Shown here one piece after another: positions 23,413 to 27,631 of a stretch of DNA of 64,000 nucleotides. The position numbers were made by a program, and so were the translations under genes. The notes beneath the pieces were generated by a model. The model saw nothing but the letters and a program-made list of their open reading frames with translations. It was not told the origin of the DNA and searched no databases. The stretch is from Actinacidiphila cocklensis (GTDB lineage: Bacteria; Actinomycetota; Actinomycetes; Streptomycetales; Streptomycetaceae), in NCBI RefSeq assembly GCF_907177275.1, contig NZ_CAJSLV010000050.1:1-64000 (forward strand), read 5' to 3'. How positions within the stretch are numbered: position 1 is the stretch's first letter; the number at the start of each line of letters is the position of its first letter.

Positions 23413-23645
23413 ATCCGCTGACCTACCCGGACCTGCCGGAGACCTGCCTCGTGGTCCTGATCGGCGCATCGGGCGCCGGGAAGAGCACGCTGGCCGCGAC
23501 CTGGCCCGCCTCGCAGGTGCTGAACCTGGACGCGATGCGCGAGGCGGTAAGCGACGACTTCTCTGTCAAGTTGAGCGTGTTGAACTTCGGACACGCGCTA
23601 CGGGTACAGCGGCCCGCTCCCGCAGCGGCCGTATCAGTCCTGTAG
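23409..23645 (+). pseudogene. P-loop (AAA/polynucleotide-kinase-like) ATPase, truncated
   Basis: Starts MNPLTYPDLPETCLVVLIGASGAGKSTLAATW; the Walker A is GASGAGKST. After SDDFSVKLSV the sequence is unrelated, so only about 55 family residues remain of an expected 150 or more. It overlaps the upstream gene by 4 bp. The 3' end collides with the rhodanese gene of the sulfur cluster on the opposite strand, which probably marks the edge of the lost element. Confidence 0.7.
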
Positions 23646-24164
23646 GGCTCGGAGCGTGGTGTGGAGGTCGGTGGTGCGGGGCTGGTTGTGGGGGAGTTTG
23701 GCGAGGGCGGCGGCTATGCCGCAGGTGTTGGTGGCGGCGGAGAAGATCAGGCCGCCTCCGATGGCTGCGGCGAGCCAGCGGGCGGAGCGCCAGCGGGTGC
23801 CAGCGGCGAGCCCGAGGACGACGAGGGTGCCTGCGGCGAGGCGGACCTGGCGTTCCATGGGCCAGACTGCTGTGGCGTTGTCGGGGCGGTGGAGGGTGTG
23901 GCCTTCGCCGGCCCAGGCGGTGGTGCCGCCGGTGAGGGTGGTGGCGGGGATGTCGGCTGCGGCGAGTTCGGTGCAGGCGGTGGTGGAGCGGTTGCCGGAG
24001 GCGCAGACCATGGGCAGGGCGGTGTGGAGGTGGTCGAGGGGGATGTTGTGGGCGCCGGGAAGGTGCCCGGAGGCGTACTCGCCGGGAGTGCGCACGTCGA
24101 TGACGGTGTAGTCGTCGAGGCGGGCGGCGGCCTGGGCGGGGATGAGGGCGGTGGGGGTGCTCAT
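23634..24164 (-). CDS. Rhodanese-domain protein with C-terminal DUF2892-like membrane domain
   Basis: A 176-residue protein. Residues 1-95 form a rhodanese domain (YTVIDVRTPGEYASGHLPGAHNIPLDHL) with active-site loop CASGNRS (Cys54). Residues about 105-150 form a DUF2892-like hydrophobic hairpin (RQVRLAAGTLVVLGLAAGTRW, ARWLAAAIGGGLIFSAATNTCG) that would anchor it in the membrane. It transfers sulfane sulfur. It is divergent from the CsoR/CstR-type repressor with a perfect palindrome between them, so it is probably repressed by it. The start at 24164 begins the homology. Confidence 0.88.
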   Translation of the reverse strand: MSTPTALIPAQAAARLDDYTVIDVRTPGEYASGHLPGAHNIPLDHLHTALPMVCASGNRSTTACTELAAADIPATTLTGGTTAWAGEGHTLHRPDNATAVWPMERQVRLAAGTLVVLGLAAGTRWRSARWLAAAIGGGLIFSAATNTCGIAAALAKLPHNQPRTTDLHTTLRALQD

Positions 24165-24220
24165 GTGCGGGGTGATTCCTTCCGTGCTCTTCCGGGGAAC
24201 GGGTGTCCGGACCCGGTATG

Positions 24221-24236
24221 ATACCCCTAGGGGTAT
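24221..24236. promoter_or_regulatory. CsoR/CstR-type operator, 16-bp perfect palindrome
   Basis: ATACCCCTAGGGGTAT lies between the divergent rhodanese gene (24164) and the repressor gene (24258). TACCC...GGGTA palindromes with a G/C-rich core are the known operator type of CsoR-family repressors. Related sites occur at 27100 and 27136. Confidence 0.8.
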
Positions 24237-24257
24237 TTGATTTCGTGGAGGTGGACG

Positions 24258-24536
24258 GTGGAGCTGGAGATGGCAGCCGACGAGCTGAAGTCGGTTCTGA
24301 ACCGGCTGCGGCGGGCTCAGGGCCAGATCGCGGGGATCATCAAGATGATCGAGGAGGGCCGGGACTGCGAGGACGTCATCACGCAGCTCGCCGCGGTCTC
24401 CCGTGCGCTGGACCGGGCCGGGTTCGCGATCATCGCGACCGGGTTGCAGCACTGCATGGCCGAGGGCGGCCAGGAGGCCGGTGACCGCGATCAGATGCGG
24501 GCGAGGCTGGAGAAGCTGTTCCTGTCCCTGGCCTGA
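24258..24536 (+). CDS. CsoR-family repressor, CstR-like (persulfide-sensing type)
   Basis: A 92-residue all-helical repressor starting with GTG ([67 protein letters not shown]). The GGAGGTGG ribosome site fixes the start. The two conserved cysteines are Cys37 and Cys66. The position four residues before the second Cys, a metal-binding His in copper-sensing CsoR, is Gly62 here. That loss is the hallmark of CstR proteins, which react with persulfides instead of binding Cu(I). The surrounding sulfur genes agree. It presumably represses itself, the rhodanese to its left and the operon starting at 27074. Confidence 0.87.
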
Positions 24537-24539
24537 CGG

Positions 24540-24554
24540 GCCCGGTGGCCGGGC
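24540..24554. terminator. Short hairpin between convergent genes
   Basis: GCCCGG-TGG-CCGGGC, a perfect 6-bp stem, lies between the stop of the repressor gene (24536) and the stop of the TauE/SafE gene (24558, opposite strand). It is probably a shared bidirectional terminator. Confidence 0.5.
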
Positions 24555-24557
24555 TGT

Positions 24558-25663: not shown

Positions 25664-25709
25664 CAGTGTTCTCCCCTCTCCATTCTCGTGCGGGGGGCGG
25701 GGGTGTCTG

Positions 25710-27074
25710 TCAGCCGGCGGTCAGGGGCAGGCCGGCGTCAGTGGCGGCGTCGAAGCCGTCGTCGACGGCGACGACGTCGCGGCCGGAGGCGTCCAGCAGG
25801 GACGCGGCGATCGCGGCCCGCATCCCGCCGGCGCAGTGCACCCACACCGTCCCCGGCGGCACCTCCGCCAGGCGGCCGTGGAGCTCGTGGATGGGAATGT
25901 GCACCGACCCTTCGATCCAACCGCCCTCGCGCTCGGAGTCGCGGCGCACGTCGAGCACCACCACGCCGTCGATGTCCTGGGCGGCGAGTCCGGCGAAGGT
26001 GGAGCGGGGGAAGGAGGCCGGGGCCGTGCCGGCGGGAAGCCAGGCGTCGGGGGTGCCGGTGGCGGCGGCGGCCGGGCGGTCGATGCCCACCCGCACCAGT
26101 TCGCGCTGGGCGTCGGCGAGCTGCTCGGCCGTGTCGGCGAGCAGGGTGACCGGCTTGTCCCAGGGGATCATCCAGGCGAGGTAGGTGGCGAGCTTGCCGT
26201 CGGCCTCGAAGTTGAACGAGCCGGCCACGTGCCCGTCGGCGAACGCGACACGGTCGCGCAGGTCGACGACCCATTCGCCGGCCGCGAGGCGGGCGGCGAT
26301 GTCGTGGGCGTCCGCGAGGGCGGGCGGGGTCAGGTCGAGCGGAGCGGGGCCAGCAGCGTTGGCCGGGCACATGTGCGTGTAGTAGGCGGGCACGACTTCC
26401 AGCCCGGCCAGCAGCTCCGCCACGAAGGTGTCCACGTCCACGGTGAGCGCGGTGTTCGCGCTCTTCTCCTTGCCGATCGTGGTCTCCTCGCCCTCGGACT
26501 GGGCCGAGGAGCAGAAGCTGCCGAAGCCGTGGGTGGGCAGCACCGCCGTCTCGTCGGGAAGATCGGAGGCCAGGCGGTGGGCGGAGGCGTGCTGGGCGCG
26601 GGCCAGCTGTTCGGTCAGCCGCGGCTCGACCAGGTCCGGCCGTCCGACGGTGCCGATCAGCAGCGACCCGCCGGTGAAGACGACCACCGCCCGCCCCGCC
26701 TCGTGCAGCGCGTAGGAGGTGTGGTGCGGGGTGTGGCCCGGCGTCGCAATCGCCTCGAGCGTCACCCCGCTGCCGGGGTCGATGTCCACACGGTCGCCGT
26801 CGGCGACAGGGACGCGGTCGAAGGTGACGTTCGCGCCGGCCGGCACGAGGTAGCGGGCGCCGGTGATCCGGGCGAGTTCGAGTCCGCCGGTGACGTAGTC
26901 GTTGTGGATGTGGGTCTCCACGACATGGGAGATCCGCACACCGCGCCGGGCGGCTGCCGCCAGGACCTGGTCGATGTCGCGCGGCGGGTCCACCGCCACC
27001 GCGGCGCTCTCACCGCCGGCCAGGTAGCTGCGGTTGCCGAGACCTTCCAGCTCGATGGTGTCAACGAAGAACAC
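25710..27074 (-). CDS. MBL-fold persulfide dioxygenase/rhodanese fusion (CstB/BlsA-like)
   Basis: A 454-residue protein. The N-terminal metallo-beta-lactamase fold (about 1-250) carries the iron-binding motif THIHNDY (His55, His57, Asp59), GHTPHHTSY and PTHGFGSFC. Two rhodanese domains follow: residues about 255-340 without an active Cys (VDLRDRVAFADGHVAGSFNF) and about 355-450 with the loop CAGGMR (Cys414). Such fusions oxidise low-molecular-weight persulfides to sulfite and can form thiosulfate. Y60 replaces the usual last His of HxHxDH, as in many actinobacterial members. It is the first gene of the operon with 25663 and 25301, next to two CstR-type operators. Confidence 0.9.
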   Translation of the reverse strand: MFFVDTIELEGLGNRSYLAGGESAAVAVDPPRDIDQVLAAAARRGVRISHVVETHIHNDYVTGGLELARITGARYLVPAGANVTFDRVPVADGDRVDIDPGSGVTLEAIATPGHTPHHTSYALHEAGRAVVVFTGGSLLIGTVGRPDLVEPRLTEQLARAQHASAHRLASDLPDETAVLPTHGFGSFCSSAQSEGEETTIGKEKSANTALTVDVDTFVAELLAGLEVVPAYYTHMCPANAAGPAPLDLTPPALADAHDIAARLAAGEWVVDLRDRVAFADGHVAGSFNFEADGKLATYLAWMIPWDKPVTLLADTAEQLADAQRELVRVGIDRPAAAATGTPDAWLPAGTAPASFPRSTFAGLAAQDIDGVVVLDVRRDSEREGGWIEGSVHIPIHELHGRLAEVPPGTVWVHCAGGMRAAIAASLLDASGRDVVAVDDGFDAATDAGLPLTAG

Positions 27075-27099
27075 GCCGGTACTCCTAACGAATGAAAAT

Positions 27100-27113
27100 T
27101 ACCCGGGGGGGTA
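27100..27113. promoter_or_regulatory. CstR-type operator, site 2
   Basis: TACCCGGGGGGGTA lies 25 bp upstream of the MBL-rhodanese start. It matches the TACCC-N4-GGGTA pattern of the site at 24221 with an imperfect core. It probably overlaps the operon's promoter. Confidence 0.7.
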
Positions 27114-27135
27114 TCTGACTCCACCGTAACACCAG

Positions 27136-27149
27136 TACCCCCGGGGGTA
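27136..27149. promoter_or_regulatory. CstR-type operator, site 3
   Basis: TACCCCCGGGGGTA is a perfect 14-bp palindrome in the divergent spacer between the MBL-rhodanese operon and the DUF302 gene. Its centre is 36 bp from the centre of site 2, so each site could serve one of the two promoters. Confidence 0.78.
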
Positions 27150-27232
27150 TATTCCAGGTCGACGGCAGCCCGATCGGGCACCCGCCGGACACCAGACGCA
27201 TCAGCACGCCGGACGACAAGAAGGAGACGGCC

Positions 27233-27631
27233 ATGACCTACAGCCGCACCGTGCACGTGAACGGCGACTTCTCACAGACCGTGACCGCCGTACGCGAAGC
27301 ACTGGCCGAACAGGGCTTCGGGATCCTCACCGAGATCGACGTGCAGGCCACATTGAAGGAGAAGCTGGGCCACGAGATGGAGAACTACCTGATCCTCGGC
27401 GCCTGCAACCCGCCCCTGGCCCACCAAGCGATCGAAGCCGACCGCTCCATCGGCCTGCTGCCGCCCTGCAACGTCGTCGTCCGCACCGACGGCGACCGTG
27501 TCGCTGTCCAGGCCCTCGACCCCGCCACCATGGTCACCCTGACCGGACAGGACGCCCTCAAGCCCGTCGCCCAGGAAGCCACCCGCCGCCTGGACGACGC
27601 CCTGTCCGCGCTCACCGGCGGCAAGGAATAG
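27233..27631 (+). CDS. DUF302-family protein
   Basis: A 132-residue protein, MTYSRTVHVNGDFSQTVTAVREALAEQGFGILTEIDV, with the DUF302 hallmarks LGACNPPLAHQAIEADRSIGLLPPCNVVVR and a short C-terminal helix. DUF302 proteins are small cytoplasmic alpha/beta proteins often found with sulfur and redox genes; biochemical activity is unknown. The ATG follows GAAGGAG. It is divergent from the persulfide operon and shares its operator region, so it is likely part of the same regulon. Confidence 0.88.
   Translation: MTYSRTVHVNGDFSQTVTAVREALAEQGFGILTEIDVQATLKEKLGHEMENYLILGACNPPLAHQAIEADRSIGLLPPCNVVVRTDGDRVAVQALDPATMVTLTGQDALKPVAQEATRRLDDALSALTGGKE

Follow-up and report, generated by a model that had tools for sequence, protein, structure and literature searches.

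In a 64,000-nucleotide stretch of Actinacidiphila cocklensis DNA (contig NZ_CAJSLV010000050.1, our C49, one of the 134 contigs that make up a 9.14 Mb genome; the stretch is called the window below), six genes at positions 23,634–27,631 very probably form the sulfane-sulfur detoxification circuit of Streptomyces, under the control of a CstR-like repressor of the CsoR family. Our observations concern the genes, their diagnostic residues, the operators and their conservation, and the separation of the repressor from copper CsoR proteins in a tree. The regulon itself is already established for Streptomyces; what comparison of sequences appears to add is the membership of a DUF302 gene and an Asp-to-Gly change in the oxygenase clade.

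A probable Streptomyces-type sulfane-sulfur circuit

All six genes are intact, contain no internal stops and belong to the families named in the original prediction (open reading frame (ORF) list and Pfam). The csoR-family repressor gene lies on the forward strand (24,258–24,536, with a GTG start at 24,258; PF02583, E 2.4e-25). Divergent from it, on the reverse strand, is a gene for a rhodanese with a YgaP-like transmembrane segment (DUF2892; 23,634–24,164; PF00581 and PF11127), whose sequence gives the loop CASGNRS; a long ORF reaching to 24,452 was rejected as its start, 24,164 being likelier. The reverse strand also carries tauE, for a TauE/SafE sulfite exporter (24,558–25,301; PF01925, E 1.2e-48), a single-domain rhodanese gene with the loop CRSGHRS (25,298–25,663; PF00581, E 1.2e-17) and pdo, which encodes a type III persulfide-dioxygenase-like protein (PDO) with an MBL domain and two rhodanese stretches (25,710–27,074; Pfam). 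Divergent from pdo, on the forward strand, is the DUF302 gene (27,233–27,631; PF03625, E 8.5e-24). Because the start of tauE overlaps the end of the upstream single-domain rhodanese gene, tauE is probably in one operon with pdo. All six genes occur in the same arrangement on a linear plasmid of Streptomyces clavifer.

The published counterpart is the SCO0618–SCO0621 circuit of Streptomyces coelicolor, composed of ScCsoR, ScPDO, ScTauE and ScRhod (Lu et al. 2020, PMC7533328). In S. coelicolor, Cys37 of ScCsoR is persulfidated and Cys66 takes part in release, the operator is ATACCn6GGTAT, found at −48 and −9 in the pdo promoter and once more between csoR and the rhodanese gene SCO0621, and tauE is co-transcribed with pdo. 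Repressor binding, derepression and mutant phenotypes were shown there: ScPDO oxidises GSSH, consuming O2, and a mutant without it had higher levels of cellular sulfane sulfur (PMC7533328). Of 1977 Streptomyces genomes surveyed in the same paper, 1248 encode a ScPDO homologue, and in 773 of these the repressor gene is close by. The window has the same Cys37 and Cys66 in its repressor, an operator between csoR and the rhodanese gene, and tauE downstream of pdo; its pdo operators are 36 bp apart, compared with about 39 bp in S. coelicolor. It differs in having an additional single-domain rhodanese gene between pdo and tauE and a DUF302 gene divergent from pdo, as well as mobile-element remnants nearby. 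Since the genes, their order, the residues and the operators match, we regard the window's locus as a member of the published circuit. The original prediction had described CstR control of persulfide oxidation as known from Firmicutes and as inferred here. A persulfide-sensing repressor acting on three operators is well backed by synteny, residues, operators and the S. coelicolor experiments, and the restriction to Firmicutes has been outdated since the Streptomyces circuit was shown in 2020 (PMC7533328). In a literature search at the level of titles and abstracts, only one paper named ScCsoR.

By analogy with S. coelicolor, the window's copy would be expected to behave as follows. At rest, the repressor would occupy the palindrome between the rhodanese gene and csoR and the pair of sites at the pdo promoter, keeping the flanking genes and its own gene off. 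A build-up of persulfide or polysulfide would lead to persulfidation of Cys37, with Cys66 assisting, and the repressor would leave the DNA. The rhodaneses could then pass sulfane sulfur to thiols, the dioxygenase would oxidise persulfide to sulfite, and TauE would export the sulfite, while the DUF302 protein would be expressed from the same divergent control region.

Two other groups of systems resemble this locus. The Firmicute CstR systems, such as that of Staphylococcus aureus, likewise place a two-cysteine CsoR-family repressor over sulfur-oxidation genes. The label "CstR-type" given originally suits the function and fails in detail: CstR forms tri- and tetrasulfide cross-links, whereas ScCsoR was seen only with a Cys37 persulfide (PMC7533328). 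The Arthrobacter plasmid "SUL module" contains a CsoR-family regulator, two rhodaneses, TauE, a sulfur dioxygenase and DUF302; unlike the window's set it also includes a transporter of the major-facilitator type and a small uncharacterised protein, and the excerpt gives a gene list only, with no mention of operators (PMC6305408). Pfam finds no sulfide:quinone oxidoreductase gene among the six window genes, which is a further difference from the Firmicute systems. Bacillus licheniformis YrkD belongs to the Firmicute CstR systems as well.

Operators in the window and in related loci

Three palindromes lie exactly in the two divergent spacers, as had been predicted: ATACCCCTAGGGGTAT (24,221–24,236) between the rhodanese gene and csoR, TACCCGGGGGGGTA (27,100–27,113), 26 bp ahead of the pdo start codon, and TACCCCCGGGGGTA (27,136–27,149), which lies 62 bp ahead of pdo on one side and 84 bp ahead of the DUF302 gene on the other. 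The latter two form a pair that is conserved in related loci. The pattern TACCCN4GGGTA has exactly three matches in the 64 kb (at 24,222, 27,100 and 27,136), and none in 100 shuffles. The strict published 16-mer ATACCn6GGTAT occurs once in the window, at the first operator; the other two are without the left A. Because a relaxed pattern (TACCCCN2GGGGTA with two mismatches allowed) finds the same three sites against a chance expectation of 1.85, only the exact operator form is informative.

Across the whole genome, the 14-mer occurs at 11 places, compared with 6 for the reversed control. CstR-like loci hold six of the 11 sites (three in the window and three on contig C59), and these end in GGGTAT; the other five (on C41, C42, C43, C66 and C113) end in GGGTAC or GGGTAG. 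These five were set aside as apparent background: their flanks differ from those of the six, and the reversed control by itself yields six.

We collected 80 named pdo loci, the best named matches to the window's PDO (1.138 Mb in total, with some genomes represented twice; all are titled Streptomyces except one [Kitasatospora] papulosa). These hold 258 operators, compared with no reversed-control matches, and 255 of the 258 have ATACCC or GGGTAT at an edge. At least two operators lie within 170 bp upstream of pdo in 78 loci (two in 71, three in 7), and the remaining two loci have one. The nearest two pdo operators are 31–37 bp apart in 73 of the 78 and 101–104 bp apart in 5. By this comparison, the operator pair is a feature of the pdo promoter, with or without DUF302; the explanation that there are two operators because there are two genes was rejected, since the pair is present at pdo regardless of DUF302.

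The original prediction had also proposed both DUF302 and the rhodanese-DUF2892 protein as extra members of the regulon. The DUF302 half stands, by comparison only, and is taken up below. The rhodanese-DUF2892 gene recurs as a csoR neighbour in many of the 80 loci, and it is probably not an extra member because, by synteny, it holds the position of the ScCsoR-controlled SCO0621; it was rejected as such.

The repressor and copper CsoR

The repressor belongs to PF02583, carries Cys37 and Cys66, and is linked to sulfur genes that have TACCC..GGGTA operators at their promoters. Alignments with 4m1p (CsoR), 5fmn (InrS) and 6ahx (a putative cytosolic protein) agree with the earlier claim that Gly replaces the copper-binding His: Gly62 of the window stands at the position of His in all three, and 7mq1 has Asn there. 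The entry name of 7mq1 is csoR, and we take it to be a streptococcal CstR. The combination C37/G62/C66 is found in 69 of 70 repressor matches in the 80 named loci, the exception being a degenerate second match in L129. Among all the loci fetched (L064–L237, centred on pdo, DUF302 or csoR), 114 of 118 repressor matches have this combination and none has His at position 62, a sample that hardly includes copper CsoR genes, the loci having been chosen around pdo, DUF302 or csoR.

A copper-sensing CsoR to which the sulfur genes are mere bystanders would be of the same family, use the same type of operator and have both of the Cys ligands that are present here. Indeed, according to the S. coelicolor paper, the operator motif resembles the Geobacillus CsoR site and the mycobacterial RicR site (PMC7533328), so that the motif by itself cannot tell CstR from copper CsoR. 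The missing ligand His argues against a copper sensor, as does a separate CsoR encoded on contig C43, which carries the His and matches the solved copper CsoR 4adz (E 1.7e-38). A tree also parts the two groups: 45 actinomycete repressors without the His lie on one side of a branch supported at 100/97, and 12 rows of metal-sensor type lie apart. We consider a copper CsoR very improbable on these three grounds and rejected that identity.

This tree has 58 rows and 92 columns, with many forks unresolved. Its 12 metal-sensor-type rows are 7 copper-type proteins from the genus and 5 solved proteins, of which the 6ahx entry is without assigned function. Near-identical rows were thinned, which reduced the copper-type proteins from 29 to 7 and those without His to 43 plus the window and C59 copies; the copper-type L033 and L041, which had no clean frame, and the degenerate L129 match (by hand) were omitted. 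The tree originally suggested as a check thus sets the repressor apart from copper and metal sensors, and is less decisive on its joining CstR. Three points weigh against a CstR-like sensor. A single representative, 7mq1, stands for CstR in the grouping; it joins the side without His at 98/77 on 92 columns and is not firmly placed; a discarded tree, in which 12 copper-type rows were on the wrong strand, set 7mq1 among the metal sensors (91/4); and the operator motif, as noted, is common to copper-sensing relatives. In some of the 80 named loci no repressor match was seen near pdo, and the repressor may therefore act from elsewhere in them.

DUF302 as a probable member of the regulon

The DUF302 protein matches PF03625 and has the TT1751 fold (model against 1j3m: Z 19.2, rmsd 1.4, 123 residues aligned). 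Cys58 and Cys79 are kept in 54 of 54 distinct DUF302 sequences, and the solved relatives 1j3m and 1q9u have Cys aligned at both positions. Among the 80 named pdo loci, DUF302 was found in 31 and not found in 49. An operator lies at most 141 bp upstream of the DUF302 start in 28 of the 31; in 27 of these it is shared with a divergent pdo, and in the other (L077), where DUF302 does not face pdo, the operator lies 102 bp before the DUF302 gene.

DUF302 could be a mere neighbour outside the repressor's control, with both spacer operators serving pdo alone. The operator pair also occurs in the loci where DUF302 was not found, so the operators at 27,100 and 27,136 alone do not prove control of DUF302, and the shared cases are weak evidence for the same reason. 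What speaks against a mere neighbour is DUF302 behind operators with no pdo opposite, as in L077 and in several loci of the window's own genus, where 12 copies of DUF302 are spread over 10 of 35 genomes. In four of these loci (L144, L145, L149 and L155; no pdo in the stretch) two operators separate DUF302 from a divergent MMPL transporter gene; in L146 a single operator separates it from a divergent MMPL-like fragment. In L161, where an operator lies upstream, DUF302 comes after a gene that we take to be thioredoxin-like from its WCGPC motif. For L147 and L159 the closest operators stand at the head of the gene run, kilobases away. In addition, plasmids of Rhodococcus and Mycolicibacterium carry DUF302 on the same strand as csoR, tauE and pdo, in one run with them. 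A neighbour outside the regulon is, on this evidence, improbable.

Several observations nevertheless count against DUF302 as a member. The 27 cases with a shared operator are not independent of pdo; a DUF302-side operator is present in L102, L106 and L117, loci without a DUF302 match; and the nearest operator upstream of DUF302 is 439 bp away in L078 and 561 bp away in L130, with none within 700 bp in L114, where the stretch begins 331 bp before pdo and the opposite gene is not visible. One DUF302 copy of the genus (L156) is without an operator.

Taken as a comparison of loci, there are good grounds for regarding DUF302 as a member of the regulon and the real extension of the published circuit. 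The literature places it near sulfur genes: in the Synechocystis sqr operon (PMC5061849), beside sox clusters (PMC5037610, PMC11034169) and in the Arthrobacter plasmid SUL modules (PMC6305408). None of these passages names CstR control, and DUF302 has 0 occurrences in the main text of PMC7533328. The two conserved cysteines suggest that the DUF302 protein acts on sulfane sulfur or on a thiol disulfide within this pathway.

A dioxygenase-like protein without its Asp ligand

The window's PDO is an MBL-rhodanese fusion whose best solved relatives are 3tp9 and 3r2u, and it has the motif T-H-x-H-x-D-(F/Y), as THIHNDY; in type III enzymes the third His is replaced by F or Y (PMC6060420). The iron of known persulfide dioxygenases is held by two His and one Asp, which in the Acidithiobacillus caldus enzyme are His57, His113 and Asp130, followed by Arg139 and Asp141 (PMC6060420). 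The window's equivalents are His55, His114 and Gly136 (codon 26,667–26,669), followed at equal spacing by Arg145 and Asp147. His55, His57, His114 and His182 are thus kept and the Asp ligand is replaced by Gly, a change on which the original prediction was silent. The solved relatives 3tp9, 3r2u and 8zbd all have Asp at this column. S. aureus 3r2u and Alicyclobacillus 3tp9 share the fold and domain order of the window's protein (AlphaFold model against 3tp9: nearly full length, Z 36.0, rmsd 2.8, 438 residues aligned) but differ in this residue; the model has pLDDT below 50 at residues 58–60 and 140–152, near the metal site. Because Gly136 leaves the protein without the 2-His-1-carboxylate triad of type III persulfide dioxygenases, we class it as a PDO-like variant rather than a canonical representative.

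The change extends well beyond the window. Among 168 homologues from L064–L237, Gly stands at this column in 153 and Asp in 15, and none of the 168 lacks His55, His57, His114 or His182. The sample is non-random: it comprises the 80 nearest named relatives, with the rest from a class-wide search (106 of 246 genomes matched; automatically chosen loci plus 40 stretches picked across the identity range), and a few records occur twice. Only proteins of at least 400 residues without stops were kept, shorter or interrupted ones being dropped along with L197 and L217 as repeats. In a PDO tree of 97 rows, made by a quick method, one change parts the Gly from the Asp groups, with 76% support for the dividing branch; one Gly row, L199 (33% identity), adjoins the Asp side. 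We also compared residues 1–250 of 152 distinct Gly-type and 14 distinct Asp-type sequences for a replacement ligand. His118 is present in 152 of 152 Gly-type and 3 of 14 Asp-type sequences; no other possible ligand residue near the site (His, Asp, Glu or Cys) is both invariant in the Gly clade and missing from most of the Asp clade. It is no proof of a substitute ligand, because 3tp9 and 8zbd have both the Asp and this His.

The absence of the Asp iron ligand from the window's PDO weighs against a working detoxification circuit, and the catalytic role attributed to this protein therefore rests on ScPDO of S. coelicolor. By synteny, SCO0618 itself would be expected to carry the Gly. The protein might instead serve in sulfur transfer or binding, with a degenerate active site, and not as an iron persulfide dioxygenase. 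The predominance of Gly among the homologues would fit such a role, as would the A. caldus variants with Ala, Glu or His in place of the Asp ligand, which keep 0.5–2% of the activity (PMC6060420). In two loci (L198 and L166), moreover, Asp-type and Gly-type genes lie within one gene run, which suggests different jobs for them. On the other side, the syntenic ScPDO used O2 with GSSH and its deletion raised sulfane sulfur, and all 152 distinct Gly-type sequences (the window's included) keep the four active-site His and the R and D of the GRxD motif. We judge a degenerate site unlikely. The Vmax of the A. caldus enzyme is 111.5 U/mg and that of ScPDO with GSSH is 1.19 µmol O2 per min per mg (PMC7533328); the likeness of the ScPDO activity to that of the A. 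caldus mutants may be chance because the assays differ.

A further possibility is tentative and rather doubtful. The regulon's oxygenase clade may have lost the carboxylate ligand in a single change and still oxidise persulfide at an iron held by His alone (His55, His114 and perhaps His57 or His118). Such a site would resemble that of cysteine dioxygenase while sitting in a beta-lactamase fold, and DUF302 would be its dithiol partner, supplying or removing sulfane sulfur. A literature search at title and abstract level, combining persulfide dioxygenase with iron-site or actinomycete terms, brought up no mention of the Gly variant.

Genomic context and related loci

The original prediction placed the genes in an accessory region, and the flanks fit: a transposase gene lies at 20,068–20,475, and a weak integrase similarity, below the family cut-off, at 28,088–29,041. 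Among plasmids, the linear one of S. clavifer (456 kb) matches the block best, with 93.3% identity over 46% of a 9 kb query. An AAA_33-like gene (23,409–23,645; 39 of 143 profile positions) is seemingly cut short just before the rhodanese gene, and a SUKH (SMI1/KNR4) domain protein is encoded at 21,118–22,209.

A second CstR-like repressor, 63% identical and likewise without the His, is encoded in the same genome (L019, C59:36000-48000, 4590–8956). Of the three operators at its locus, one precedes the repressor gene itself; the other two lie in the spacer from which an MMPL transporter gene and a gene for cytochrome oxidase subunit I diverge, the oxidase frame being broken by a stop near its start. 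MMPL-family genes are found repeatedly next to CstR-like repressor genes in the genus (L144, L145, L149, L155, L157 and L162), with adjoining operators, and such a gene stands in one run with csoR, DUF302, tauE and pdo on the Rhodococcus plasmids L167 and L168. This recurrence suggests a role for the MMPL transporter in sulfur stress. CsoR, MMPL and TauE also occur together in PMC6305408, the only match in a title- and abstract-level literature search for the three.

Operators also precede genes of the pyridine-nucleotide-disulphide-oxidoreductase family or thioredoxin-like genes (L118 at 12,939, L100 at 10,951, L115 at 10,987, L159 and L161). We read the former proteins as sulfide:quinone-oxidoreductase-like, with a Pfam basis for L118 only, and the thioredoxin-like genes were named without Pfam. 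With operators before such genes, the regulon can exceed the set found in the window.

Implications

As a recurrent member of this regulon with two conserved cysteines, DUF302, a family of unknown function, would gain a testable role. The Asp-to-Gly change matters for annotation and modelling: either these proteins have a different iron site, or many actinomycete "persulfide dioxygenases" may be misnamed.

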